Assembly: GCA_933228895.1 (NCBI GenBank)
Contig: OW121846.1
Location: 82,162,064-82,226,063, forward strand
Length of the DNA: 64,000 bases
Direction: 5' to 3'
Source: Platycnemis pennipes
Lineage: Eukaryota > Arthropoda > Insecta > Odonata > Platycnemididae
Of this stretch, positions 1 through 48,929 are shown piece by piece. The notes beneath the pieces were generated by a model. The model was given only the letters and a program-made list of their open reading frames with translations. It made no database searches and had not been told where the DNA came from. The position numbers and the translations under genes were made by a program. Positions within the stretch are counted from its first letter, which is position 1. Each line of letters starts with the position of its first letter.

Positions 1-3000
1 CACTCTTTATATTAATATATATTGTCATCAGATCAATTTCTGAAAATTTTACATCATTGCATCACAATTCTCTCGATCATAATCAGTATTGGAATGTTGT
101 CCCCATATTATTTGATGTTGTTTGCAAAGAACAGCGATGCAATGCCTATGTCCGTATTATATCCTGTTATATCTCAAAATTCGCTAGTCATCAGGATCTC
201 ACATGTTCTCCTGATTTGATTAACACAATCAATCTTTTATGAGTTGACTTTCATGATGAGAAATAAGCAGTTTATTAAGACCTTTCGAATTCCTACAGTT
301 TTGAGTTTTCCTTCACATCCCATCTTTCATCCTTCATTTATCAACTTTACATATCAATTACTGTCTCAAGCAATGAAAAGTATAGCTTACAAGTATAATG
401 TAACTATAACTTAAGGATGATTCATATTTAATGAAAAGGTTGGGAAAATGTGGTCTGTGTGGGACCAAGGAGATTGACGTATTAAAAGCATTTGTTATTA
501 ACTCATTTATGTCAATTCATACGAGAGCATCATGAATTTGATATGAGATTGATGTGAAACTAGGTATTCACTTTAAACTTGGATGTGATGAATGATGAAG
601 ACTGGAAATCCATGAGAGACAATGAATTTGCTCACAAACTGGGAGAAAAAATAACAATACTGTGCGGTTGCAGTACTTATAGAAGAGTTTCAGTATCAAT
701 GACTTCACTATCACTTGTCCTTAAAGTTAAAATTATGAAGGGATATCTTCCTCCCTCTCTCAAAATGTCTGTATGCTAGGTTAGAAACATTTAAGGTATC
801 TCGTGCCCTTTTTAGAACAATTAATCTTTTTGTGTAACAATATTACTCTTTTAGGTAAGGTCAAAGGGGTTAGGGAAGTTCAAGGTGAATGGTGGGAAAT
901 CTCAGGGATAGGACAATACCATGAATGGTGAGATGGGATAGAGAGGGTGAGGTAGGCATACCGAACAAATTAGAACAAGAGTCTCCGGTGGAGGACTACC
1001 ATTTGATCTTAATTACACCAATAAGCAGGGTAGAATGGTGTACGAGAGTAACGAATGAGTGGATCTGTTCTGCTTTCCTTTTGGAAAAGAATGATTAAAA
1101 TCATTATTCTAGCAATGTGGCAAAATTGCGATGGCTGCATGGTCAGGTCGCAAACTTTTATGAGCTTACGGGTTTATTTTCAACCAAATTGAAAATATTT
1201 TCTGAGGCGAGTTTTCGTTAAACTAGTTAATTATGATCTAAATTGAGCTGAAATATTCAATAGAATGATTGATTATACCCATGACAAAGTAACTGCTGAA
1301 AAGTTTTCAAACATGGAGAATTGCTTTCATCAATTGTGCTAAAGTATGCCTTTCCCCTGAAAAAGGTATCATGTAAAGCCTGATAGGGCCTGTTGTCCAA
1401 TCCTTTTCTTATTGACCATAGAGACTACATATGGCCAAACCTCTTGTGTTACATTCTGGCCTTATTGTCCCTTGAGCAGCATCAAGTAGATTTATGCATA
1501 AGAATCAGGCATTTTATGCACTAATTTCCAATTAGGAAGTGGACAGTGCTTATTGCTAAAATTGAAATTTTGCAAAGACCCAAAAATATTAAGGATGAAA
1601 CTTGGACACAATAAGAAATATAATGCAAAAACTTAACATGAAATGGCACAAACGAGACAGTCCCAGGTCATCCTCAAAGCCTCAGTCTAAAATACTCAGG
1701 ACATATTGATGGTGTCTGGCAAAAAAAGAACGTCGCCACTACTATTTCATCAGAATCGCAATGCAGCCGTGGCTTGATAAAATGATTTTCAACCCTCACT
1801 CATGCCTTTCTTCACGCAATTCCCACATGGAGAAAAATCGCCAGAAAAAAAGCTCCCCATTGCTCGCTAAAGTGAGGGTGGCCTCTCCACTCTCCCTCAA
1901 AACGACTACCCTATTGTATAATTCATGGTTTCTCTTCTCAGAACCCAAGTCACAACACTTAAATTTACCTCTTCATCTTGTATGATAGTGATTTATAATC
2001 AGGTGGAGAGGGCAGATGGGAATGTTAGATAGGAGGAAGAGAGATGTTATTATGGTAGGCAATCATTAACTTAGGTCATTTGCACAATTATGAATAGGTG
2101 GGTATTTGGGAAGACACGGTAATTTATAGTGGATAGAAAACCACCATCAGCTTTGGACTTCTCTTTACAAAAGCATCAAGGGGCCCAAGTTTTATGTCCT
2201 GTTTTATGAGGTACTACTGCAGTAACCAATGTTCATGGCACTTGTACTGTAGACCCAGTTTTGGGTAAAGATCCCAAGTCCCTAAATCAGATGGAAGAGT
2301 AGTACTTGAGTAGTGATCCTATCCTGGAAATGGGATCCTCTGTGACCAACTGACCAGTGTTGTATAGCCTCGTGTACTGTGAAATTCAAACTCCAGTATG
2401 TGTGTTGATTTAAAATATATGATATTTATCAATTTTTATCAATTGAGATTTATTAGTTTTATCAATTGAGAAGAATACTACATATGTACTTATGAATAAT
2501 TGTAGCTATTTTATTTTACTAATAATGTTTTGAATTAATATAATTAAAAGTGAAATAATTTTGTGGATGATACAATACCAACAAAACTTTTCTAATTCAC
2601 TGTATTTAAGGTTGAATATTTGGAATTTAGTTGAACCTACCGCAATAATTACTCTTATTTGAAAAGTTGCTCTGTAATTTTCTTTGATTTTGCCAGGTAA
2701 TATGGGAGCTATCTGCTTCCATTTTTTTGAGCTGCTAAATAGGTCAGTGTTTGAGGGCAGTAGTTTCTCCTCTGTAACAGGAGGCATCTGAAGATTCACT
2801 TCAACCTGAAAATGTCTCCTTTAATAGAGAAAAAAAACTCATGATGAAACACTGACCTACACAGCTGTAGTGGAAAAATGGAACCAGATATGACAAGATA
2901 CAGTGGATGTCTTTGTTCCCATTGTTAGAGAGATTTCCTCATCAAATGTTCTCATATTCTAATTGAAACAGAGTTAATGAATGAAGCCTCTGGCAATAAA

Positions 3001-3451
3001 TTTCCAAGGAGGCATAATTTATATTCCATAATTTGGTGATTATTTCATGGTCTGGTTGTATTGTATCATTTATTGTAAATGTACAGAACAAGTCTAGAAA
3101 TCTGGCAAAAGCTTGTAAGGAATTGAAGCATTCAAGGTTTTAGTTTAGTACTCATTTGTATAAAATTCAGAGAGGCTAGAAATTTACTACTGCGAGAAGT
3201 TTAAAAGCTAACTTGTTGTTTTGGTACCTTAGCCAGCCACTAGCCTTTCACTCCCTAAAGCCCCTTTTAGCCCACCTCATTGCCAAACTTCCCATACGTT
3301 CCTACTTCCTTCATGCTGGTCACGGTCACTAATTTTACTTTTCTCTGTATACCTGCAGTTCTCTCCACTTAACATTCACTTAAGGATCAGTATTGTTTGT
3401 CAGAAATCTACCAGAAATTGTAGGTTTATGGACTGATTGTGCCTGTGTTAC
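1..3451. other. AT-rich non-coding DNA, nothing recognised
   Basis: No open frame here looks like a known protein on either strand, and I find no clear TIR, LTR or tRNA-like module. Short direct echoes of 'ttttatcaattgag' occur near 2430-2475. If the p24/TMED exon at 8544 is in a plus-strand gene, this stretch could be upstream intron, but no GOLD-domain exon could be found in it. Confidence 0.5.
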
Positions 3452-3459
3452 CTCCTCTT

Positions 3460-6400
3460 CAAGGCCGGATTTAGGAACCTGTAGGCTAAATCCATTTGCC
3501 GCCCCCCCTTTTTTTTAGAGACTCACAGATAATGGACATATTATACACAATATGTTATACATATTATACTTTCATTTTATACAACAAATGATAGATTCAG
3601 TTATTCAAATAAAATTGTCCTGAAGAGTAAAACTAAAACCACACAAAAACAGTTTATTACTGGTTTATTTGTTGACATTAAAAAGATAGATGTTATACGG
3701 GTTACCATAATACAAACATGAATAAATGTACAAACACAATATAGTTGAATGTTTGGGCTTAAGTACATTCTATACTTTCGTATATGTTCAAAACAACATA
3801 GTTTTCTTATGAGATTTCTTAATGGCAAACTCGTTAATAATGTCCTCATATGAAAGTGTTTTTGTTGTATTTGCCTCAATACACAGTAAAGAAAGTTAGT
3901 TTAACCTTCGTTTGGAAGTACTAGTTCGTAGGTAATTCTTAACTCTTCTAAGGCAGGAAAAACTACGTTCTCCAGCGCAATTCATAGCAGGTATGCACAA
4001 ACTTATCCTTAAAGCGATGTCCAAATGTGGGTACACATCTTCTAGTGAGTTAAATCTTAGGAATTTTAAAATTTCTTGTAACAATTTTCCTGGTGGTTGA
4101 TCAATCCCCTCAGCCCAGTGCTTTTGGAAGTGGATGCACTCTTCAGTAAAATCAGAATCCAAATCATTTGTGTAGATATTGTAAAGATTGGTCGCCTTCT
4201 TTCTCAATTTCTCTTCCATGTCTCTCTGATCAGTCTTGTAATCACACAACTGAGTTAAGAAGTAAAATCTGTCTTGAAACACGTTATAGGCCACTTTTCT
4301 TTTCTTAAATTCAAAAACAAAAGAGTCTATAACTGGTAAAAACGTATTTGTTTTAAGATCATCCCTGCCGGTAAAGTTTACTTCACCACTTCGGTCTTCG
4401 TCAGCCCAAACTTTTCTTTTTAGTTGTCTTTTTCATAAGATGTAGGTTTGGTTATATCCATAGCCAATTTCTCGCAGTAATCAAAATGGTTTCTCTGTTC
4501 AATCAAATATTCTTCAAGAGAACCATACAAATCTCTTACTGATAAAACATCTACAGTTTCACTCTGCATGGCTTTGCTAACTTTATGAATTCTATGGAGT
4601 ACGGTGCTCCAGAAACATACCATAAAAGTGGTTTCAAACCTTTCTAATCTTCGAAGAATTCCTTGGGATTTACATCTAGTTGTTGCTTTTTCTGTTGAGT
4701 CATTGGAAATTTCTGTCAAAGCAATGCGTACTTCTTCCCAAGACTCTCGTAAACTTTGGCACGCATCATCTCTAGCTGACCATCGAGTAAGACACACTTT
4801 TTTTATTGTCTTCTTCTGATACGATGTATCCATAACGCTTTTTGTTAAACATCCCCATCGCTTTGTAGAGCACGTAAAAAATACATGTATTTCCTGAAGC
4901 TACATGAAAATTTTGCACGCTTTTCCACATGATTCTGTAGCAGACGATCCAGCAAGGTTTAGGGAATGTGCCGCACATGGTATGAATAAAGCTAAAGGAG
5001 CTTTTTCCTTTATTTTTGCTTGCAGACCATTGTAAACACCGGCCATATTTGAAGCGTTATCAATCGATTGTCCTCTGCAATCATCAATGCTTATTTTCAG
5101 ATTTTCGAGCTCATTCATCACGCTCTTGAACATTTCTTCTGATTTATGACCCGCTGATGGAATGAAAGTAAGAAATCTTTCACACGACGCACCGTCACTT
5201 GTAACGTATCTAACAGCAAGCACTAACTGGTGTACATGTGGCATGTCTGGGGTCGAGTCTATGATGAGAGCAAATTATTTAGTTTGTTTCAAATCTTCAC
5301 AAATTACTTGCCTAACATTTTGAGCCATTAACTCAATTACCTCTTCGCAAGTCTTGGAAGAGAGATAATTTGTATTGCCACTACCGCAATTACCGTATTT
5401 TTCGATGTGAGCTGCTAAGAATGGATCAAACTCTGATATCAGCTCGAAAGCCATTAAAAAATTTCCATTCCTATTAGAACCAATTACCTCATTGTCACCT
5501 CTCAAAGCGAGACCTCTTGATGTCAGGGCCTTAACGGCCGCTACAACTCTTGTTAAAACATTTCTCCAATAGTGTGTTTCTTTGTCTATCTGTTGTGTAA
5601 GCATACTGTCAACATGGTTAAGAGAAATTCTTCTTGATTTTAGAGTAGTTATTGCAGATTTGTGTATTGGTGAATTTTCGTGGTGACATGCCCGATATTC
5701 TCCATTTTTGCAGTCTTTAAAACCATCTTTATCGTCAAATTGTGATATTTCTTTGCTGTTAAACGCTAAACAAGGTCCTCAAAAGACTGATCCCTAACTT
5801 TTGGAGAAAATCATCCATTTCCTTTCATGAACTTCTCCATTTTTTAACTTTCGTTTAAATAGAGATTTAGTCAAATATCTCTTTTGATCTTTGCACTCTC
5901 TTAAGCTGTTAGTTGAATCTAAATATATTTTGGTCAAAGCCATTTTTTGCTATTAAATCTCGAGTAACATTGTTTAAGATACACGAAGCTGGATCCTTAT
6001 CTAATTTGGTAACTAATGGTTGCGAACTTACTTCTATTTCAGTAGGTTCTGGTAGGCACAGCTGTTTTTGAGCAACTTGGCCTAGTGAAAGCATAGTCGT
6101 CCCCTACAGAATCATCACAAACATCAGCACTGCCACTAGCACTTTCTGATTTCCCTTCTTTTTCATTATCATTCTTTTTCTCTACTGGCGAAGCATTAGT
6201 TTTAAAATCCAAATTAGTTTTTTTGTTTGTTTCAGAACATGTTCTTGTTCCTGAAGTTTCAATTTTGATCATTTTTTGTACTCAGAACCACTGAGTCTCT
6301 TTCTATTGTCACTCATAGTAGTATACTTTTATGAGCTGTATCTTCCTTAATTGAATAATTTAAGCCAGTAATCACAGCACAATCATAACTACACAGCAGC

Positions 6401-14700: not shown

Positions 14701-14734
14701 ATGGCTCGTTTTTAGCATTTAAATCATAAATACC

Positions 14735-14899
14735 TGTCGTTGTTTCACTTAAATAATTCGTAATTAAACTATACTTTCACAGTCTATACACACTCAACAC
14801 TTCGTTTTATTACATTCGTCTCACTTGACTACACATAAACAAAATTGTTTGTTACATAAACTTTCAATAATGTATTCTTGTAAAATATAACTTTCAACA
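14735..14899 (-). repeat. Copia 3' LTR
   Basis: 165 bp, identical by eye to 17302-17466. The polypurine tract AAGGGGGAG lies immediately upstream on the minus strand. Confidence 0.93.
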
Positions 14900-15043
14900 C
14901 TCCCCCTTAACAAATCAATTTTTGAACCTTTAAATTGACACACAACAATTAATAACCTTTTTACAAAAAACACAGTCAAATACAACTCAATCCTAATTCA
15001 TTAATAAAATTTGAAGTTTTTACTCCCCCTAAATTTTAACTTT

Positions 15044-15361
15044 TCAAAAACTATCCCCAGCCAAAGAACCTCCTAGCAACTTCCTCTCTTGCTCCAAACG
15101 CAACCGCTCCAGCCGCGTTTGCTCAGCCACCTCCAGCCTCTTGAGGCGCTCCTCCTCTCGTGCCAACCGCTCCTCCTCCTCCTTCATCTTCTTCAGAGCC
15201 TCCTGCATGGCTGCTATCGTCTTCTTTCCAGGCCCCTTCTTCTTGTCATCCTCTTTCGCCTCCTTGGCACCCTTTTTCTTCTTCTTGTCGTCCCCGTCGC
15301 CATCCTCTTTGGCCGCATTTTCCTTCTCCTCTTCATCCACGGCAGCACCCCCAGCCTTCAC
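15044..15361 (-). CDS. Second frame of the captured eIF5B segment
   Basis: An open frame of about 105 codons continues the eIF5B similarity after the frameshift. It contains KKKGPGKKTIAAMQEALKK and KEEEERLAREEERLKRLE. It has no ATG at its start (GTG at 15361) and would be translated only by frameshifting. After LEQERK at about 15085 it leaves the eIF5B match (LLGGSLAGDSF) and stops, marking the downstream capture junction. Confidence 0.7.
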   Translation of the reverse strand: MKAGGAAVDEEEKENAAKEDGDGDDKKKKKGAKEAKEDDKKKGPGKKTIAAMQEALKKMKEEEERLAREEERLKRLEVAEQTRLERLRLEQERKLLGGSLAGDSF

Positions 15362-15795
15362 TTTCTCCTCTGCTGCCTTGGCGCTCTGCTCCTCTGTCTC
15401 GAGGGCGCCTTCCCCTTCTCCGCTGCAGCCTTCTCCACAGAAGCCTTGGATGCTGGTGCTCCAGCTGTTGCAGCTGCTGCACCCTCTTCCACCATGCTCT
15501 TTCCATCTTCCTGACCCTCTTCTGCAGGTTTCTTGACCCCTTGCTGCTTCTTCACGGCCAACTTCTTCTGCTTTTCTCGATCTTTCTTCTCCTTCTTCTG
15601 CACAGCCGTCTTGACGGTCCCCTCGGCACCCTTAGCCCATTCCTCCTTTGGTGGTGCCGCGGCATCCGCCCCCTCCTTCCCCTTCTTCTTTGGCACTTCC
15701 TTCTCCTCAGCCTCCCCCTCATCCTTCCTCACGCCCGTGTACTCAAACTCCAGCTCTGCCAGCATCTTCTCTACGTCCTCCTCACTACTACTTGC
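15085..15795 (-). pseudogene. eIF5B: Captured host eIF5B cDNA segment
   Basis: About 710 bp of GC-rich sequence codes for part of the charged N-terminal region of eIF5B, the GTPase that joins ribosomal subunits. Remembered eIF5B landmarks occur in the right order. These are a DVEKxLAELExEY block, VKTAxQKKxEKKxREK, KKKGPxKxTxxAMQEALxK, and the heptad coiled coil KEEEERxxREEERxKRLE ending LEQERK. The first two are in the gag frame. The last two are in a second frame (15361-15044) reached by a one-base shift near 15405-15420, where ALETEEQSAKAAEEK continues the reading. No introns interrupt it, which suggests capture from spliced mRNA. The GTPase domain is absent. Confidence 0.85.
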
Positions 15796-17181
15796 ACTAC
15801 TTAACGCTACTGCATTGTAAATTCCATTTTTGTCACTATCATATTTCGATTCTACACACCCTGTCGACATCATGGCCTTGTTCGACATTGCTTCTAGTAT
15901 GTAAAGTCCCTCTCTCTCTGGAGCTTTAAAAATATCTTCTCCCTTGAACCTTCCCACACAGAAATCAGCAAAAGTTTCACATGAAATTCCCTTTTTCGCC
16001 AACTTTGAGCAAGATATAAGGTTATAATTGAAATCTGGTACATATAAAACAGCCGTAAGTTCCAAAAGTACGTTACCACACTTAGATGCTAACTCTACTC
16101 GTACCGTTCCCGTTCCTTCCACTTCAACACTGCCCCTTCCCATATGTACGTAGCCTTTTATTGGTTTTAATGAAATAAATGCCGATTTGTCCTTGCAAAT
16201 GTAGTCAGTCGATGCGTTGTCCAATATCCACTCATTGTCTTTCATTCTCATAGTCGTCAAATTCACTGCGTTTATACATGATATCGTCTTCATGCCGCTA
16301 CATACCGATTTAGGTTCGTAATCTTCTTCCCCCTTTTTCTTAATATCTAAATCTCTATTTTCCGCACAATCTCTCGCGAAATGACCACTCTCTCCGCAAT
16401 TGAAACATTGTCGATTTCGAGGGCAATCTCTAGAAATGTGTCCCCACTTATTACAATTATAACACTTTCTATCATCATTGCTTCCATTTTTCTGCTCCAT
16501 CGGTGGCCTGGTTTGGGTTGGGTGATAACCGCGATAGCTTTCCCATTGTCCTCTCCATCCTTGGTTGAAATTTGACGTCAGCGCTCCGTGTACCGCCTTT
16601 TTTTTGTCACAGGCCATCTCGTCTTCTTGCAATAATACAGCTTTAACTTTTCTTGTTGATAGCTCCCTGTCGCCACCCAGAATTGCAATGGTGACTCTGT
16701 GGGTATCGGGAAGACCTGCCAGGAATAGGCCTGCCAGCTGCTTGTCGTTGAGCTCTAATCCGTATCCTGCACTTTGGACCACTCTGTTCAAACCTTGTAT
16801 CTCAGCCATGTATTGATGCATCGTTTTCTCCGGCGTTTTCAGTACGTTCATCATTTGCTTCATGACCTTCAGGCATTTGGTCAATGTAAAAGATGTATGG
16901 ATTTCCTTTAAAATGTCCCAAGCGTCCTTTGCAAAGTCGTTATCACCAATATCTTCAACATATTCCTTAGATACCTGTTTCAGTAGGAAAGCTAGGGCCT
17001 TGCGATTCAGTCGTGCTTTATCGATATTTAAATCATCAACTCGTTCTTCATCAAAACCGGGGTCTATGGCATTCCAACAGTTCTTTTCTATTAATTCAGC
17101 TTTCGCTACTTTGGACCAAGAATAATAATTTGTAGTATTTAGCTTTTCAATTCCATATTTCGTCGTGTCTCCATCCGCCAT
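15358..17181 (-). CDS. Copia Gag-protease fused to eIF5B N-terminal segment
   Basis: This 607-residue frame starts at an ATG (MADGDTTKYGIEKLN), about 120 bp inside the 5' LTR. Residues 1-190 are a UBN2/Copia-type Gag. Around residues 238-272 are two CCHC knuckles, CYNCNKWGHISRDC and CFNCGESGHFARDC. A protease-like region follows, but its active-site motif is WILDNASTDY where Copia normally has D(S/T)GA, so it is probably inactive. GLYILE marks the Gag-pre-integrase boundary. From about residue 465 the frame changes character, to GC-rich DNA and Lys/Glu/Ala-rich protein, and matches host eIF5B: EEDVEKMLAELEFEYTG, then VKTAVQKKEKKDREKQKK. It stops prematurely at RQQRRK after a frameshift near 15415. 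Gag would make particles; the fused tail would have no obvious replication role. Confidence 0.9.
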   Translation of the reverse strand: MADGDTTKYGIEKLNTTNYYSWSKVAKAELIEKNCWNAIDPGFDEERVDDLNIDKARLNRKALAFLLKQVSKEYVEDIGDNDFAKDAWDILKEIHTSFTLTKCLKVMKQMMNVLKTPEKTMHQYMAEIQGLNRVVQSAGYGLELNDKQLAGLFLAGLPDTHRVTIAILGGDRELSTRKVKAVLLQEDEMACDKKKAVHGALTSNFNQGWRGQWESYRGYHPTQTRPPMEQKNGSNDDRKCYNCNKWGHISRDCPRNRQCFNCGESGHFARDCAENRDLDIKKKGEEDYEPKSVCSGMKTISCINAVNLTTMRMKDNEWILDNASTDYICKDKSAFISLKPIKGYVHMGRGSVEVEGTGTVRVELASKCGNVLLELTAVLYVPDFNYNLISCSKLAKKGISCETFADFCVGRFKGEDIFKAPEREGLYILEAMSNKAMMSTGCVESKYDSDKNGIYNAVALSSASSSEEDVEKMLAELEFEYTGVRKDEGEAEEKEVPKKKGKEGADAAAPPKEEWAKGAEGTVKTAVQKKEKKDREKQKKLAVKKQQGVKKPAEEGQEDGKSMVEEGAAAATAGAPASKASVEKAAAEKGKAPSRQRSRAPRQQRRK

Positions 17182-17283
17182 CTTGATCTTTCCTTTATAT
17201 TTTTTGCCGGCCGTCTATTCTTTCGTTTCCGCCCTTTCTAACGTATTTTTTCTCTTCTCAATTCTTTTCTACTTTTCACTGAG

Positions 17284-17301
17284 CGCCATGGGCCCATAAC
17301 C
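17284..17301 (-). promoter_or_regulatory. Copia primer binding site (initiator tRNA-Met half)
   Basis: On the minus strand, immediately after the LTR, the sequence reads GGTTATGGGCCCATGG. Its first 13 bases complement the anticodon-arm region of animal initiator tRNA-Met, the half-tRNA primer used by Copia. Confidence 0.8.
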
Positions 17302-17466
17302 TGTCGTTGTTTCACTTAAATAATTCGTAATTAAACTATACTTTCACAGTCTATACACACTCAACACTTCGTTTTATTACATTCGTCTCACTTGACTACA
17401 CATAAACAAAATTGTTTGTTACATAAACTTTCAATAATGTATTCTTGTAAAATATAACTTTCAACA
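17302..17466 (-). repeat. Copia 5' LTR
   Basis: 165 bp, identical by eye to 14735-14899. It ends next to the primer binding site. As the 5' LTR it should contain the element promoter, though I see no decisive TATA placement. Confidence 0.93.
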
Positions 17467-17578
17467 ATACCATGGTAGGAAATTTTTAAGCAGCATATTG
17501 TAAACTAATAATTCTTGTCCCCGTATGAATTCTTTGAAATTTCCCAATTTGAAAATTTTAACATATAAGTTCCTCTGC

Positions 17579-20162: not shown

Positions 20163-23100
20163 CTCGCGGCTGAGCTTAAAGCCACCGAGTGCGTCCACTG
20201 GGTTGCGGATGGTGGGTGGGCCTCTAGATATAGAGGTTAGCTGCAAGATAAGCGAGTTTACTCGTCGAATAAGCAGTCGTGGACAAATAGCGACGGCATT
20301 CCGAGGGCATATTGGTCTATCCTTGTGGGTAAGGTAGGCCTTAAATAATACAGAACCTGTGAAGATGCCGTGACTTGGCGATGGAGGCCGCCAACAATTA
20401 CGCTTCCCATCACCCGAAGGAGAGGGCAGCAGCTCTTCTTCACATGAGTGAAGGTGGAGACCACAGTACAGCGACACTCATTTCACTACAGGCATGGTAA
20501 CATTTACTTTAACGGCTGTAGTACTGCGATGTGGAAGGCAAGGGGAAACCACCACATTATTATCCCGAGGAGTCGCAGCTACTCCACTCTTTCCTTTATT
20601 ATCAAGACGTGATGGCACCCTCTCGAGTAAAATATTCCGGAAGTAAAATAGTCCCCCATTCGGATCTCCGGGCGGGGACTACCCGAGAGAGTACATCAGT
20701 CAAGTGTGATACTCATTTTAGGGTAGGAACGTGGAACGTGCGATCACTTCGGACCTGCGGAAGACTGGAGAACCTGAAGGTGGAAATGCAGAGAATGGAC
20801 CTCGATGTATTGGGAATCAGTGAAATGAGATGGCCCGAAGAAGGAGACTTTTGGAGTGGAAGTTATAGAATTATTCACACCGGATCACTGAATGGTAACG
20901 CTGGAGTAGGCATAATGCTCAGGAAGAGTGCGGGACTGCGTGTGAAGAGCTTCCTGCAATACAGTGAAAAGATTGTAATGGTTAAAATTGAAACTAAGCC
21001 TACAGATACCATTGTGGTGCAAGTTTACGTGCCTACGTCGGACTATCAAGATGAAGAAGTGGAAGACGTCTATGAAGATATCACTGAAGTAATAAAACAG
21101 GTAAGAGGAGAAGAAAACCTAATTATTTTAGGAGACTGCAACGCTGTCGTCGGCGAAGGACAAGATGGAAGAATAATTGGAAAATATGGATTGGGAAACC
21201 AAAACGAAAGAGGAGAAAGACTGCTGGAGTTCTGCGCACAACATAAGTTAGTGGTTACTAACACATTGTTTAAAAATCACAACCGAAGAAAATACACATG
21301 GAAGATGCCAGGAGACAGAGGAAGATTTCAAATAGACTACATTTTAGTGAAGCAGAGGTTCAGGAATCAGGTGAAGGACTGCAAAAGCTACCCGGGTGCA
21401 GACATCGGCAGCGACCATAATTTAGTGATGATGAAATGTCATCTAAAATTCAAGAGATTGAAGAAAACAGTAAAGAACATTTGGCAAGTAGAAAAACTAA
21501 AGGATACTCAAAATCAGCTGGAATTTCAAAAAGCAGTAGAAAACAACATAGGAGAGGACCTGACTGAGAAACCAGTAGAAGAGCGTTGGGAGAACATTAA
21601 ATGTGGACTACAAAAAGCCGCAAAAGAAGTTCTTGGAAGAAGAAAAGTTGTTAAGAAGAAACCATGGATCACGGAAGAAGTCTTAGTGCTGATTGAAGAA
21701 AGAAGAAAGTACAAGAATGCGAAAACTGAAGAAGGGCAGCTTTGCTACAAAAGAATAAGGAACGAAGTAAGTTGCAAAGCCAGGAAAGCTAGAGAAATGT
21801 GGATGAACAATCTGTGCGAAGATGTACGAAACAACCTTACCATTTGAAAGGTGGAAGCTGCCTATAGGATAGTGAGGAACCACTTCAAGGAACGGAGCGC
21901 AAGATGCAATGCTATAAGGGACAAGAATGGAGAACTTTTGATTGAAAATGAAGACAAAGTGAAGAGATGGAAAGAATATCTCGAAGAGTTATACAACGGG
22001 AACGATCTCAGCACGAAACGGATTGAAGAGGAAAGCAAAGTCGAGAAGGATAATATGGGAGCATCAATATTGAGATCGAAAGTCGACGCAGCAGTAAGGG
22101 ACCTTCGGATGAATAAGGCTTCTGGAATTGATGATATACCCGCAGAACTGATAAGGAATGTGGGAGAGAGGTCATTGGCCCAACTTTATAATGTCATCTG
22201 CGACATGTACTCAACAGGAGAAATACCCAGGGTCTTCAAGAAAAACATCATCATTCCTATTCCCAAAAAGAAGAGAGCAGAGAAATGCGAAAATTTTAGG
22301 ACTATAAGCCTGACGACACATGCATCGAAGATATTGACAAGGTTCATCTACAGAAGAATAGAACGAAAAGCAGAGGAGTTCCTGGATGAAGATCAATTCG
22401 GATTCAGGAAAAGTAAGGGTACAAGAGAAGCAATATTGGCCCTTAGGCTGCTTATAGAGAAGAGAATGGAGAAGAACAAACCGACCTTCATTGCATTTGT
22501 GGATTTAGAGAAGACTTTCGACAACATGGATTGGAATTCAATGCTTGATATTCTGAAAGGAATTGGAGTTTCCTACAATGATCGAAGAATTATCCACAGT
22601 TTGTATAAAAACCAAGCAGCTGTGATTAAATCTGGACCCAGCTGTGAAGAAGCAAGAATAAGGAAAGGAGTGAGACAAGGCTGTGCACTGTCTCCCGTAA
22701 TTTTTAATGTTTACATTGAGAGAGCCATCAATGAAGTCAAGGAGAAGTGTTCTGGAGTGAACATCCACGGAGAAACAATCAGCATGCTACGATTCGCTGA
22801 TAACATAGCTCTCATAGCAGAGACAGAGAAGGAGCTGAATAAGATGCTAACAACCATGGAAAGGACAATGGCCAGACATCAGCTGAAGATCAATAAGAAT
22901 AAAACTAAGATATTGGTGTGCAGCAAAAGAGAAGAGGCCAAAACCAACGTTAAACTAGGAAAACAGAAACTGGAAGAGGTGAAAAAGTTCTGTTACCTGG
23001 GAAGCAGAGTAACCAACGATGGACGAAGCAAGAAAGAAATAGTGAGTAGAATAGCCCAGGCAAAGAGGGCATTCTATCAAAAGAAGAATCTACTAATAGC

Positions 23101-23586
23101 TGAAAATACAAGCTTGGAAGTAAGGATGCAATTCATTAAAACGTATATCTGGAGCATGTTCCTTTATGGCAGTGAGGCATGGACGATGACAGTAGCGGAG
23201 AAGAAAAGGGTGGAAGCATTCGAAATATGGTGCTATCGACGAATGATGAAGATAAAATGGATCGACCGAGTGACAAATGAAGAAGTCCTAAGAAGAGTGG
23301 GAGAAAAGAAAAGTCTGCTCAAAACTCTAAAAAGAAGACGGGACAACCTAATCGGCCATGGCATCTTAAGACACGATGGCCTGATGAAGACAATCGTCGA
23401 GGGAAAAGTGAACGGGAAAAATGGAAGAGGCAGGCCTCGTATGAGTTACATGGAGCAGGTCGTAAAGGACGTGAAAGAGAGGAACTACGTTGGTATGAAG
23501 AGGTTGGCCGATAGAAGAATCGAGTGGAGGCCATCAGTGCATCAAACCAATCCTAGGATTGTTGACCCTTGATGATGATGATGATG
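20163..23586 (+). mobile_element. Full-length RTE-clade LINE
   Basis: A 12-bp target duplication, AGCCACTCTTCG, flanks the element at 20151-20162 and 23587-23598. It has a 5' UTR of about 450 bp, one long endonuclease/reverse-transcriptase frame, and a very short 3' UTR ending in TGATGATGATGATG. The TGATG-repeat tail and single ORF are typical of RTE elements. The duplication is intact, so the insertion looks fairly recent, but the ORF carries inactivating changes. Confidence 0.9.
20612..23572 (+). pseudogene. RTE endonuclease-reverse transcriptase, one stop and FADN site
   Basis: I chose the ATG at 20612 (MAPSRVKYSG) because the longer frame begins without an ATG. Domain order: an APE-type endonuclease with GTWNVRSL, GISEMRW, ILGDCNAVVG, IDYILVKQRF and GSDHNLVMM (20720-21450), then a linker, then reverse transcriptase with VDLEKTFDNMDW and RQGCALSPVIFN. 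The catalytic box reads MLRFADNIALIAET where active enzymes have FADD (codon AAC at 22802-22804). An in-frame TGA at 21845-21847 splits the ORF; the frame continues unchanged to TGA at 23570. The product would nick target DNA and copy the RNA at the nick. Both lesions make this copy inactive. Confidence 0.92.
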
Positions 23587-34129: not shown

Positions 34130-35187
34130 ATGGAAGGAGAAAGAACAACTCAAGAACTATTTGATGGAAATAATTACGATGACTGGAAATTTTTAATGGA
34201 GATTATCTTGGATGAACGTGAATTATTGTACCTCGTGGATAATACTTTTGAGAGTTTTGAAAGTCCTTTATTAGTCAAACCCAAAGATGAAAGAGTCACT
34301 CAAACCAGAGAGAGAGAAGCAAAGCTGCATAAATTGAGATCTGAAAACAAAATGGCTAAAAGAGTAATAGTAACCCGAATCAAGAGGGACTACTTTGATA
34401 TCGTGGAAGGATAAGCAAACGCATATGATGTTTGGATGGCTTTGTCCGAAAGGCCTTTAAGTATAAACCCCAAGAAGAAGATTTCAAAAAGTTCTGTACT
34501 GTCTTTGATGGATATGTGAGAGAGTTGGCCAACAAAGAAGAAATAATTAGTGAGAAGAGTCAGCTTGCAAAATTCCTCGCATCAATGCCAGACGATTATG
34601 TGAGTGTAGTAACTACACTCAGAGCGGTTGCCACAACTGGGAGTCTAACAATGTCTCTGGTTAGACAGAATATTGAAGAATTTGAAGACAGCCACCAGAA
34701 GAAAGCGAAGAGCAGCAGTACCAACTTCCAACTGACTGCATTTGCCGAAGTCCGAGGAAGTCACCACCAAAACCAGCAATTCAAGCCTTTCCCTTTCAAC
34801 TGCGACAATTGTTGGCTAAAAGGGCATACATTCGCAGACTGTTTCAAGCCAGGAGGAGGAGCACATCAACGTGGCAGAGGAAGAGGAACGCATCATCAGG
34901 GAGGCCGTGACGGTGGAAATTGTGGAAATCATCAGCAAGGAGGTACCGGCTATCATCAGAATAATGGGTTTAGTTTTAAAAATAATACTGGTAGAGGTAA
35001 GACTCATGTAAACTATATGGAAAGAAATAATGATAATAGTAGTAATAATGATAAAGAATATGTTGCCTATAGCTTTTATATTGAAATAGATAGGTACCTG
35101 TTATGTGAATGGTAAAGCAGAAGCAGACGACACTGTTATCAAGTGACTGGATACTTGACTCTAGAGCTTCTGGATCATTCCACCGTT
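34130..35187 (+). pseudogene. Copia Gag and start of protease
   Basis: Gag starts MEGERTTQELFDGNNYDDW. A TAA at 34412-34414 and a shift break the frame, which resumes at 34432 (YKPQEEDFKKF) with the UBN2-type helices. One CCHC knuckle, CDNCWLKGHTFADC, follows at about 34800. The tail is Gly/His/Asn-rich. After another break, SDWILDSRASGSFH is the protease active-site region (DSGAS changed to DSRAS) and is cut at about 35185 by the nested element. Confidence 0.85.
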
Positions 35188-37682: not shown

Positions 37683-39359
37683 TTATTTGGCCGGGTGGAG
37701 TGAAGCCATATCATCCTCGACAGCATCATCTAAGGGCTTGGCGATCTTCTTAAACAGGTCCGTTAATTTGGTCTGCTTCCACCTGCTTTGGCTCTCTTTC
37801 ACTAGCTTTTCTTTCAAACGATAAAGGTTCAAGATGTCTGTGTCTTGGGAAGAGGTCCTCCTTTCCATGTACTTTATTAGTTTTTCAGCACATTCGATGG
37901 CCTCAGTCGTGGATATTTTCTCCTCATCCACGCTACTCTCACTATCGCTCTCATCATTGCTCGTGATGGTTGAGCCAGTAACCGCATCCACAATTTCACT
38001 ATCTGTGAAACTCTGATACACAGGGGCGTTTTTGTCGCAATTACTCCACTCCTTTATTTCCTCGTCGCTCAATTCAGCGTTCAGCTCCTTGAAGAAACTA
38101 AGAAAGTCGGAAGAGTCTTCGCCCACTGGCTCAAAACCAAGGAACTCATTCTGGTCGTCTGTTCCTGGTTGAAAATCTGGTAGCACATTGTTCCAACACC
38201 TCTTCAAAACAGTGGGTGTTACTTTCTCCCACGCTTCAGCTATACACCACACCGCATTTTTTATAGTAAATTCTTTTTTAAATTTTTCATAGCTGTAGGC
38301 ACCTTCACACTGTATTATAGTTTTCATTATCTCACTTCTGTAGTGACACTTCATGCTGTTTATGATACCTTGATCCAGGGGCTTAATTAGGGATGTGCAA
38401 TTTGCTGGAAGGTATGATATAATGACGTTCTCCTCCACTAGACTTTCTGCGGGGGGATGGGCAGGGCAATTGTCCAATAACAGTAAAATTTTCGAGTCTT
38501 CTGGAAGCCCTATAGCCTTGTAGTAATCCCTAACCTCGGGCAAAAAATGACGATAGAACCATTCCCTAAACAGGTCCTGCGTTATCCACGCCCGTTTATT
38601 TGAACGATATATCACTGGAAAATGCCGGATGCCCTTAAACACTCTTGGTTTAGCACTTTTTCCAATTACCAACAGCTTGCATTTATGATTACCGGCAGCA
38701 TTCGCGCAAGCCACGACGGTAAGTCTTTCCATCGATTCTTTCGCTCCGGTTGCTGCCTTCTCATCACTGCAGACAAAGGTTTTGCGAGGAAGACAGCGCC
38801 AGAACAAACCTGTCTCATCCATGTTGTAAATCTGCTCTGGTAAAAGATTATGGTCTTCCACCAACTTAGCCAGCTTATTCACGTACTCCTCCGCAGCATC
38901 ATAATCAGCTGACATTTTTTCACCGGTCACTTTCAAATAGCGAATGCCATGCCGCTTTTTAAATTTCTGCAGCCATCCTGATGAATATTCACAAGGCGTA
39001 GTTACATTGAGCTCCTTGTGGAAATATTTTGCTTTCTCCATTATGATGCCACCTGAAATTGGAATACCCTCACTTCTCCGCTGCCGGAACCACTCGTACA
39101 CCACCTTGTCCAGCTCAATGTTGCTAGCTCCCCGTAAATTTCTCCTTTTCGAAATTCCAGCCAACGAATCGGATTCCGCGATGAACTGTAAAATTTTATT
39201 TTTCTGTCCCTTGATATCATAAATAGTCGACTGTCCAACACCATACTCTTGGCGAAGTTTCGAAACACTGACACCTCGTTCTAATTTTCCCAGCAGCTCC
39301 ACTTTTTGCTGAAGAGAGAGTGTTTTTCTTTTTCTCTTTGAGCCAACTGCTTCTTCCAT
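37683..39359 (-). CDS. Tigger transposase, intact 558-residue ORF
   Basis: Uninterrupted from ATG (MEEAVGSKRKRKTLSLQQK) to a stop at 37683. Domains: an N-terminal Psq/CENP-B-type helix-turn-helix (about residues 8-60), a second CENP-B/Tc5 helix-turn-helix (about 75-145, ending SGWLQKFKKRHGI), then the DDE catalytic domain. The three acidic residues lie in YNMDETGLFWRC, ILLLLDNCPAHPP and SLIKPLDQGIINSMK, with 32 residues between the last two. The tail is acidic. The protein binds the terminal repeats and moves the element by cut and paste in the nucleus. Length and motifs are normal for Tigger. Jerky-type host genes derive from this family, but the TIRs and TA duplication show that this is a transposon. 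Confidence 0.93.
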   Translation of the reverse strand: MEEAVGSKRKRKTLSLQQKVELLGKLERGVSVSKLRQEYGVGQSTIYDIKGQKNKILQFIAESDSLAGISKRRNLRGASNIELDKVVYEWFRQRRSEGIPISGGIIMEKAKYFHKELNVTTPCEYSSGWLQKFKKRHGIRYLKVTGEKMSADYDAAEEYVNKLAKLVEDHNLLPEQIYNMDETGLFWRCLPRKTFVCSDEKAATGAKESMERLTVVACANAAGNHKCKLLVIGKSAKPRVFKGIRHFPVIYRSNKRAWITQDLFREWFYRHFLPEVRDYYKAIGLPEDSKILLLLDNCPAHPPAESLVEENVIISYLPANCTSLIKPLDQGIINSMKCHYRSEIMKTIIQCEGAYSYEKFKKEFTIKNAVWCIAEAWEKVTPTVLKRCWNNVLPDFQPGTDDQNEFLGFEPVGEDSSDFLSFFKELNAELSDEEIKEWSNCDKNAPVYQSFTDSEIVDAVTGSTITSNDESDSESSVDEEKISTTEAIECAEKLIKYMERRTSSQDTDILNLYRLKEKLVKESQSRWKQTKLTDLFKKIAKPLDDAVEDDMASLHPAK

Positions 39360-39589
39360 TATCGAGTAAGATGATCAGGCTATTGCTTGGTTTAACACTT
39401 CAGGACAAGACCTGCTCACCACGTCATAAAAGCAACCAACTATCGTAGCCACGGCGAAACAAGTCCGATGACAGATCAAAAAGTGAAAGGGAACCTATGC
39501 CCTTGAGCCAATAGATAAGCTCCTTCACCGCTCCTTCCCCCTGCTGACCCTTACGACGTTGTCACATTCCTTGTGCCGCTAGGGGATTC

Positions 39590-45694: not shown

Positions 45695-48600
45695 TTAATC
45701 CATGCTAACACTCCAGCAGAAAATATTGGACAAATCAAGCCTGTAAAGAACTATATTGCCAAAACCAAAGATTTTATTTTAGCGGAGCAAAGGGCAAATG
45801 TAAGAGGAAAAATCGTGATAAATGGAAAATAGGTTAATATCGAATTTTTTAATGTTTTAATGGTACAGAATTTAAAATGTAATTTGTGTCAATTTCAACG
45901 TTAGAAGATAAGGGATGCAGAATGACAATTGATGAAGGGAAATTTACAATTGTGCATAAACAGTCTCAGAACATAGTATTGATAGGCTATCGATGTGGAA
46001 GTTTATATAAAATAAGGCTGACTTCTGAATTGCCCAGTAATAAATTCTGTAATATCGCAGTGACAAGTGAGCTCTTACACAGGAGGCTGGGGCATTCATC
46101 AACTATGTGTATTAAGACATTAGCTGAGTGTGTTGATGGGATTGGTGAGGTCAAACTAACCTACAATATGTGTGAAGTGTACGTATCGGAGGTAAGCAAG
46201 TTAGTGTGTCTCACAACTCAGCAAGGGTTAAGACTACCAGACCCTTAGAAAGGGTTCACTCAGATCTGTCTGGTGCTATTTCTCCTGCTGCATATAATGG
46301 GGTTCAGTGCCTCATAAGTTTTGTGGATGATTATACGCATTTCACGGTATCATTTGGGCTTAAATTAAAATCAGAAGCAGCTAGTTTTGTCAAACAGTAT
46401 GTGGCGATGGCCAGTAACAGATTTTATTTTAACAAAGTACAATTCAGATGTGATAATAGAACTGAGTATGTAAAAGAAGAAGTAATTGATTTTTTCAAGG
46501 ATAAGGGAATTCAGTGGGAATTAACTATACCTCATACTCCGGAATTAAATGGGGTTGCAGAACGCATGAATCATACTATTAATGACAAGGCTCGATTCAT
46601 GCTCATAGATGTGAATATTAGAAAATGTTCTGGATTGAAACTGCTCCTACAGCTGTTTACATAATTAATAGACTGCCTACAAGAGATTTAGAATGTAACA
46701 AAGTGCCAGCTGAGACGTGGTTCAATGTCAAACCTAATTTAAGTAACTTGAGGGTATTTGGGTGTCAAATGTCAAATTTTGGTGTCAAAAATGTATATGT
46801 CAAGAAACATAAAGTACAGATACATGGTAAATTTCATGAGAGATCTAAAAAATGTATTTTCTTAGGTTATTGTCCTACTGGTTATAGATGGTTACATAAA
46901 TAATAATGTTTGTGTAAATAAAATGTAATGATTGTGGAGTCTCTCTGAACACAAAGTTATTTCTGCGTGAGATGTTGTGTTCAATGAGGAGAGGAATAAA
47001 ACCGATAATCATGACTGGGATTATGTCTGGGAAGATGAGAGGAGAGGAAATGTAGATGGAGATAAGGAGGAGGAAATTGAGAGTGATGAGAATCAAAATG
47101 AGATTGAGAATATTGCAGGAAATACCCCAATTCAGGAGGAGCCGAGGAGTAGTCGAGCAACCAAAAAGCCAGAATACCTGAAGGACTATGCCAGACTGGC
47201 AGTGAGAGATGGTGTAATTAAGGAGGAGAGTGAAGATAGAGTGGAATTCTGACTGTTAACCTTCCTTCTTTCTGATTGGGAAAAAAGTAGAATCACCCTC
47301 TATACAGGTAATAGAAGAAAATTCAAATTTGGTGTTTAATGCTGTTGGCTTTGCAGATGGTGCACCTGAGTCATATGATGAGTTACATGATAGATATGAT
47401 AAAAAGGAGTGGCTTAAAGCAATGCAGGAGGAGATGAATGCTTTGAACTCAACAAATACATGGGATTTGGTAAAATGTCCAATGGGGAGGAAACCTATAA
47501 AAAGTAAGTGGGTGTTTGCTCTAAAACATAACAGTGAAGAAGAAGTGATAAGATACAAGGCAAGGTTAGCAGTAAAAGGTTGTTCACAGAAAAAATGAGT
47601 AGATTATTCGGAAACCTATGCTCCGGTAGCAAGACTGTCAACATTAAGAATATTACTCAGTATCATTAATCATAAGAATTTGTTTGCTCATCAACTTGAT
47701 GTGAAAAATGCATTTCTAAATGGAATTTTAAAAGAAGAAATTTATATGATCCCTCCAGATGGTATGAACGTTATGGATGGTTTAGTGTGTAAGTTAAATA
47801 AAACCCTATATGGGTTATAACCCTAATAGACCCTAATTAATTAATAATTAACCCTATACACAAGCGCCAATGGAATGTAATGCTAGGTTTCATGCATTCA
47901 CTATCAAGATAGGGTTCATGCAATGTGTTACAGATAAGTGTGTATATGTAAGATCAGTAGGATCTACAATTGACTACTTGTTATTATATGTAGATGATTT
48001 TATTGTGGCAAGCAATGTTGAATTGTCCCTTAAGTTTGAAAAATATTTTTATGCAAGAATTTGAAATGAGAGATCTTGGAGAGTTAAATTATTTTTTTGG
48101 ACATTAAAACTTAAAGACAGGGCAATATATACTATAGTAAGTATCTCAGCCAAGATGCATAATTAGATAAATTAGTAGATAGATTCAAATTGAATACAGC
48201 CAATATTAGAGACACCCCTTTGGCAACTACAAATTTTGTGATATTCCATCCTAACCCATTGAACATACAATGTATAGATCTTTAATTGGTGGGCTGATGT
48301 ATGCCTGTGTCACAACTAGATCAGACATCGCAGCTTCCATCAGTTTTTATAGCCAATTTCAAACAAAACCAACCAAGTCATTGTGGGCTGGTTTGAAGCG
48401 GGTTCTGTGCTATCTCAAAGGTACTAAATCATTACGTTTGGTATTTAGAGGTTTAAATGATACAGCCATAGTTAGGTATGCAGATGCTGATTATGCAAAC
48501 CATGAAGACAGGAAATCTGTTTCTGGTCATGTCTTCCAAGTTTTTGGTGATTCTGTTCTGTGGGCTTCTAGGAAACAACAAACTGTTGCTCTCTCATCTA

Positions 48601-48929
48601 CAGAGTCTGAATAATTATCGTTAGCTTCAGCAACTGCTGAATTGTAGTGGATGCAACAGCTGTTAAATGAATTGAAAATTGAAGTAGTAACACCTATTAT
48701 TATTTATGAAGACAATAAATCATGTATAGACTCACTTATTAAATGGGATCAAAGAAGACTAAAACATGTTGACATTAAATATAATTTTGTAAGAGACCTT
48801 ATTCTACATAGTGTTTTAAAAGTTGCATATATTCCAACGGATTGTCAAACCGCTTATATCTTTACTAAAGGTTTGCCTCTTGTATCATTTGCAAAGCATA
48901 GATCTGAACTAGGTCTACAAGAAAAATAA
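45695..48929 (+). pseudogene. Copia protease end, integrase, RT and RNase H
   Basis: Continues the Copia polyprotein after the nested DNA. Order seen: the protease tail VNIEFFNVLMVQNLKC with a stop; a GAG-pre-integrase segment (46071-46190, ELLHRRLGHSS); integrase with HSDLSG, SFVDDYT and LNGVAERMNHT (46206-46670) and a frameshift near 46640; and the spacer. Reverse transcriptase follows with SKWVFALKHNSEEEVIRYKA (47500) and HQLDVKNAFLNGIL. A 50-bp disruption lies at 47820, then LLLYVDDFIVA (47975), the YVDD catalytic box. RNase H ends the polyprotein, with SLIGGLMYACVTTRSDI (48275) and YADADYANHEDRKSVSGHV. Many stops and shifts: dead copy. Confidence 0.88.

Follow-up and report, generated by a model that had tools for sequence, protein, structure and literature searches.

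An intronless eIF5B segment within a non-autonomous Copia retrotransposon lineage of Platycnemis pennipes

A 64,000-nt stretch of the Platycnemis pennipes genome (GenBank assembly GCA_933228895.1, contig OW121846.1, positions 82,162,064 to 82,226,063 of the forward strand; hereafter the window) contains one complete Copia-type long terminal repeat (LTR) insertion of 2.7 kb at 14735-17466 (-), in which part of the coding sequence of the host gene eIF5B lies within what is left of the pol region. Transduction of host mRNA by a Copia retrotransposon, now non-autonomous, is very probably how the element arose. The absent introns, the junctions, the retained native pieces, the missing enzymes and the independent target site duplications (TSDs) were all observed directly. 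An initial annotation, made from the letters of the window alone, had proposed that a young Copia element took up spliced eIF5B mRNA in place of integrase and reverse transcriptase (RT) and then retrotransposed; its account of donor and template was borne out, and its dating and placing of the capture were revised.

The insertion is bounded by the TSD GGTAT (in element orientation; ATACC on the plus strand), at 17467-17471 on the 5' side and 14730-14734 on the 3' side. The 5' LTR (165 bp, TG...CA, 17302-17466, -) is identical at 165/165 positions to the 3' LTR (165 bp, 14735-14899, -). Directly 3' of the 5' LTR is the primer-binding site GGTTATGGGCCCA (17289-17301, -), which we take to be complementary to the anticodon arm of initiator tRNA-Met; the primer of Ty1/copia elements is a cut initiator tRNA-Met. 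At the other end, a native 3' tail (14900-15032, -), identical at 133/133 positions to that of the RT-bearing relative L029, ends in the polypurine tract AAGGGGGAG, which adjoins the 3' LTR on its 5' side. The LTRs, the duplication, the primer site and the polypurine tract had been listed in the initial annotation, as had a gag open reading frame (ORF) continuing into GC-rich coding sequence. That ORF (607 aa, 15361-17181, -; ATG at 17181, stop at 15358-15360) encodes Gag, two CCHC zinc knuckles, a protease/beta-barrel region and the first of two eIF5B frames, and runs stop-free from gag into the Lys/Glu-rich segment, with a GC content of 57.5% in the eIF5B segment vs 41.3% in gag-protease. 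Pfam matches in the ORF were PF14223 (Retrotran_gag_2, 7.9e-14), PF00098 (7.4e-14, two CCHC knuckles) and Pol_BBD (2.6e-17), and neither an integrase core nor RT was found by Pfam in either of the two frames scanned; both are replaced in the element.

The captured coding segment, 704 nt at 15080-15783 (-), corresponds to Ischnura eIF5B residues 226-478. It is preceded by the last native stretch (15784-15829, -), which was delimited by comparison with other copies and holds a secondary 5' junction, and is followed, 3' of a secondary 3' junction, by a decayed native remnant of RNase H coding sequence (15033-15079, -), recognised by eye against L034, L029 and further copies. The two eIF5B frames are separated by a frameshift near 15405 (region 15390-15420, -), where a 35-nt unit kept in 15/15 other aligned copies is missing from the window copy; host eIF5B has a repeat at this position. 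Copia-type Gag with a CCHC knuckle, TG..CA LTRs and a 5-bp TSD are all present in the window element. Likeness to Ty1/copia also extends to the protease region, the pre-integrase and RNase H remnants and the copia-type RT of L029, and the window element differs in having no integrase core or RT; it is a Ty1/copia derivative and not an autonomous member.

The assignment of the segment to eIF5B was supported by comparisons with structure and protein databases and with eIF5B relatives. Against 177,635 PDB sequences, frame 2 had human eIF5B as its sole strong match (1.3e-11; next 0.07), with no significant Pfam domain (best 0.018), and for the frame-1 region a single one of 4,490 candidates matched (E up to 0.01), eIF5B from Hetaerina americana, a damselfly (4.8e-11). 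The two pieces scored 124 and 136 bits against 120 eIF5B relatives, the top two of which were the odonates Hetaerina and Ischnura for both frames, and in trees of 31 rows each the window piece grouped with the two odonates with ultrafast bootstrap (UFBoot) support of 100 for frame 1 and 70 for frame 2. The host's own gene is closer still: protein identity to the host was 199/223 aa for the window copy and 224/254 aa for the divergent copy L031, vs 193/247 between host and Ischnura. Since the elements are closer to the host than the host is to Ischnura, the sequences suggest a donor in the own lineage of P. pennipes, after its split from Ischnura. In a host/element tree, from which an empty Anabrus row was left out, the elements and the host formed a clade (UFBoot 81).

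Host eIF5B maps to the minus strand of contig C9, and alignment to it showed that the captured piece takes in the end of exon 3, exons 4 and 5 in full and 24 nt from the start of exon 6 (exon numbers are our own numbering). All three introns expected in this span are absent from the window segment. The exon 3/exon 4 junction is at 15543-15544 (-), where the host has AAGAAGCAG/gtgag ... acag/GAAGGGGTC and an intron of ~11.0 kb; the exon 4/exon 5 junction is at 15294-15295 (-), with host GGCGATG/gtgag ... caag/GGGACGAC and ~5.5 kb absent; and the exon 5/exon 6 junction is at 15103-15104 (-), with host CTGGAGCAG/gtgcgt ... acag/TTGCG and ~3.5 kb absent. These introns are all GT-AG in the host and total ~20 kb, and their absence at the splice sites therefore identifies the captured template as spliced mRNA. 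Two longer copies, L030 and L034, have a 289-nt match to the host exon-6 region that ends at its donor, and in L030 more eIF5B coding sequence follows directly after the exon-6 donor position. Isoform differences in other insects were uninformative on introns. A different, distantly related Copia element lies inside a host eIF5B intron (L048, C9:13071801-13081800, at ~1807-5976, -).

A search for further copies, which the initial annotation had suggested, revealed a family. The LTR search, in which the best 40 of 156 candidates were scored, yielded 16 LTR pairs ~2.6 kb apart, the window element included, and at 15/15 of the other LTR-paired loci the gag-protease, eIF5B and tail sequences occur in identical order. 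Exact 5-bp TSDs flank 13/16 paired copies and are different in all 13, in agreement with the earlier proposal that the chimera retrotransposed after the capture. LTR-LTR identity within paired copies is ~97-100%, and in 10/16 copies the frame from the gag ATG reaches beyond residue 466, where the eIF5B part of the window copy begins. Protein searches added divergent copies, at least 47 distinct loci outside the host gene, giving at least 54 together with the paired ones; these counts are lower bounds because only the best candidates were scored. Copia sequence adjoins the eIF5B part at all 40 loci inspected of the 54; of the remaining 14, eight have a match unbroken across a host exon boundary and six a match inside exon 3 only. 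Distances in Gag and in eIF5B are correlated (Mantel test over 23 of 24 loci: r 0.90, 0/1000 permutations), and both parts therefore travelled as a unit. The lineage holds several structural subfamilies, and the window element belongs, as a young copy, to the shortest one observed. Two loci ~435 kb apart and in opposite orientation, L042 (C3:9614710) and L043 (C3:10049493), have identical counts vs the host and are probably one locus via segmental duplication. At L025 (C9:124378000-124387500), two ends of eIF5B elements are inverted with mirrored flanks, as if in an inverted duplication.

The divergent copies retain an older structure. Beyond the window junction their native sequence continues as a pre-integrase domain (WHNRLGH) and then an integrase zinc finger (C..C..GKA), and five of them keep ~110 nt more native sequence, covering these two parts, than the window copy. 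The older 5' junction lies within this zinc finger, where eIF5B begins at the equivalent of Ischnura residue 207. The native integrase peptide was found at 13 loci, of which five were read across the older 5' junction and six have the peptide running into the eIF5B match; at the other two, L030 and L034, native integrase continues past the junction point, and because it is kept there both parents of the junction are visible, sharing the 8-nt match GGCAAGGC. At the opposite end, eIF5B stops near residue 484 in L031 and 494 in L032, each in frame with RNase H, and near residue 703 in L034, again followed by RNase H. The 3' insert edges read in further copies all end in AAG, and that of L034 does not. 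In L031 a single frame stays open for 726 aa, beginning inside Gag, crossing the entire insert and reaching the native end of pol; upstream, within Gag, this frame is broken, and the match in L032 holds two stops. These older junctions indicate that both insert edges of the window copy, at the 5' junction near 15790-15810 and at 15080 on the 3' side, arose by later deletion. The young insertion of the initial annotation stands as such but is not the capture, which is older and whose products occupy at least 54 loci. Splicing into the element was rejected as the joining event because the older 5' junction sits within host exon 3, ~310 nt past its acceptor.

How many captures took place is the question on which an alternative survives best. 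Two separate eIF5B mRNA captures, of approximately Ischnura residues 207-494 and 416-703, might have occurred within the same element family instead of a single large one shortened by deletion, and we regard this as a substantial possibility, if not the favoured one. L030 and L034 have more native integrase 5' of the insert and a later eIF5B start than the other copies, and three of four substitutions common in other copies are absent from both. Against this, L030, L034 and the other copies share four differences from the host, and over 199 nt all copies are about equally far from the host, observations that do not decide the matter.

The other alternatives concern whether an LTR element captured mRNA at all. 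A processed eIF5B pseudogene made by a long interspersed nuclear element (LINE), later invaded by a Copia element and then moved jointly with it, would likewise be intronless, and LINE ORFs are present in the window; this is very unlikely, as the LTRs and TSDs lie outside both parts, the insert is embedded in pol and flanked on either side by native sequence, and no stand-alone eIF5B retrocopy was found among the 40 inspected of 54 loci. Capture at the DNA level, by insertion of a genomic eIF5B fragment into the element or recombination with it, would need only that both sequences occur in one genome, as they do, and is refuted to the point of being highly improbable because the ~20 kb of introns is absent at GT-AG sites. 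Resemblance to eIF5B by composition, in a generic charged coiled coil or Copia-encoded linker, agrees with the very high Lys/Glu/Ala content of the segment and with the absence of a PDB match for frame 1 alone, and had been named at the outset as the reading that would speak against a capture, but it is dismissed because host exons match the element copies exon by exon at 79-93% nucleotide identity with edges at splice sites, and controls for the 124 and 136 bits gave less than half the score (at most 57.8 and 55.5 in 200 shuffles each, 46.2 and 47.8 for the reversed sequences).

Whether the insert is functional was addressed through ratios of nonsynonymous to synonymous substitution (dN/dS). 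Host-element values were 0.13-0.31 at dS 0.18-0.25, which includes constraint on the host gene. Between copies, the pairs of L031 or L032 with others gave 0.34-0.53 and the remaining pairs 0.20-1.32, the pairs not being independent, and a neutral null built from the mutation spectrum of noncoding parts had a mean of 0.69, with values <=0.40 in 2.8% and <=0.45 in 6.5% of 1000 runs. For gag-protease in 11 copies dN/dS was 0.19-0.84, with 6/55 pairs above its null mean of 0.72. Within the young subfamily, silent, replacement and nonsense variants numbered 40/66/3 in gag-protease (expected 27/69/4%). The corresponding eIF5B variants numbered 10/16/4 in frame 1 and 4/16/0 in frame 2 (15/16 copies; L009 was left out because its junction differs) and look neutral, and a frameshift is shared among copies. 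Together with the low dN/dS of the deep pairs, these observations suggest that the captured segment is probably a passenger now and, on weak evidence, possibly was constrained earlier. A stronger version, in which a Gag-protease-integrase-finger-eIF5B-RNase H fusion was once under selection, its eIF5B region aiding the element RNA or particle (for example by a tie to the ribosome), seems unlikely; the in-frame eIF5B-RNase H join in L031 and L032 bears on it, and if true, a transduced host domain would have been an adaptive part of an animal LTR retrotransposon.

The proposed course of events for transduction of host mRNA is as follows. An ancestral element would have packaged spliced eIF5B mRNA beside its own RNA, and RT would have begun synthesis on the element RNA, changed template to the eIF5B mRNA and then returned, at short matches; such a similarity between element and mRNA is seen where the older 5' junction lies (GGCAAGGC). 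In this way coding sequence from the interior of eIF5B would have taken the place of the integrase core, of RT and of some of RNase H, in the span from the integrase start to the RNase H end. The LTRs and TSDs are outermost, and native sequence with no poly(A) tail follows the insert, as looked for in mRNA capture by an LTR element. Enzymes supplied in trans by pol-bearing relatives could then have copied and integrated the chimera, which would be possible because the LTRs, primer site, polypurine tract and Gag were kept. The chimera went on to spread to at least 54 loci while shedding internal sequence stepwise. Pieces of the native pol order were recovered as the protease region followed by the integrase zinc finger (divergent copies), a terminal RNase H, and a copia-type RT domain (RVT_2) in L029, which has an LTR 97.6% identical and a 133-nt tail identical to those of the window element. 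No complete pol copy was found among the copies examined, and the native integrase peptide was not found in the pol-bearing relatives, L030 and L034 supplying it instead.

Several points weigh against this account. No intact helper was found, and the pol-bearing L029, L062 and L063, which were fetched at length, look broken or truncated. Three of the 16 paired copies (L011, L012 and L022) have no exact TSD, and the elements form a single clade with UFBoot support of only 72. The 3' edges differ among copies, and no original 3' switch point could be assigned. The two junction types, L031-like and L030/L034-like, may go back to a single large capture followed by recombination or to two captures. 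Some room for a function is also left by the deep pairs, whose dN/dS falls below the neutral null.

The chimeric lineage may lack protease activity too, because the motif D-S-G, as found in the relative P0121, is replaced by D-N-A or D-N-T in 33/33 chimeric copies scanned (D-N-A in the window, 16213-16221, -); the 34th locus scanned, the pol-bearing L062, gave no match. P0121 was one of two relatives, with P0122, returned by a gag protein search in which candidates were 0.55-1.75x the query length, a range that excludes full Copia polyproteins, and among viral contigs 14 pattern matches gave no confirmed relative. P0122, a gene model of the thrips Frankliniella occidentalis, consists of Copia gag, a Lys/Glu-rich stretch with only a weak match, to Utp14 (0.0057), and then RNase H; the stretch is possibly another capture or a gene-model artefact.

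Capture of mRNA by LTR elements is already known from plants and from chimeric animal retrocopies, and what is new here is that an animal Copia lineage of this kind has diversified. In LTR-mediated retroposition of metazoans (Tan et al. 2016, Genome Res., as described in PMC5408686 and PMC8277862), template switching at short similarities brings mRNA into an LTR element, the copy being made by the LTR retrotransposon machinery, and one family, CG17604_r, has reportedly amplified. Capture of mRNA is common to both, and in the present case a short similarity is seen at the older 5' junction. The present case differs in that Gag, the protease region and the host segment share a single ORF of the carrier, that most of pol has been replaced in place by the insert, and that the chimera has diversified into subfamilies with at least 54 loci. 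Bs1 of maize is described as an LTR element with transduced host gene pieces from three donor genes forming a hybrid gene (PMC5408686, PMC13317346). Both systems carry transduced host pieces, but Bs1 is a plant element with three donors and the present one an insect Copia element with one. No animal Copia element with captured eIF5B was found in the literature searched, which was open-licence PMC, with most subscription papers outside it. 

Acutely transforming retroviruses are replication-defective and carry gag-onc fusions, a piece of host mRNA standing in frame behind Gag while a helper supplies the enzymes. By analogy, the present lineage would resemble them as a defective element with an in-frame host piece behind Gag and borrowed enzymes; it differs in being an intracellular Copia element, with no envelope or infection seen and no known effect of the host piece. 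It may thus offer a Copia parallel to the supposed origin of transforming retroviruses. What spreads here is the chimera itself, as a mobile animal lineage whose donor gene, introns, older junction, deletion series and many copies are contained in one genome, and steps of a transduction (the switch site, the match length, the next losses and how long a defective chimera spread) can be read from sequence.

Other mobile elements were found in the window. A LINE-type element at 20522-23572 (+) has two ORFs, first one for an endonuclease (441 aa) and then one for RT (574 aa), and a 563-aa open frame at 37683-39374 (-) encodes a Tc5/pogo-type DNA transposase with DDE_1, HTH_Tnp_Tc5 and CENP-B_N domains. 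Retroelement fragments comprise a Copia gag-like piece at 34429-35115 (+), just under the Pfam cut-off, an integrase core at 46176-46664 (+) and a stretch at 48273-48920 (+) that shares 32% identity with the RNase H portion of P0122. A remnant of a hAT transposase dimerisation domain lies at 3896-4432 (-).

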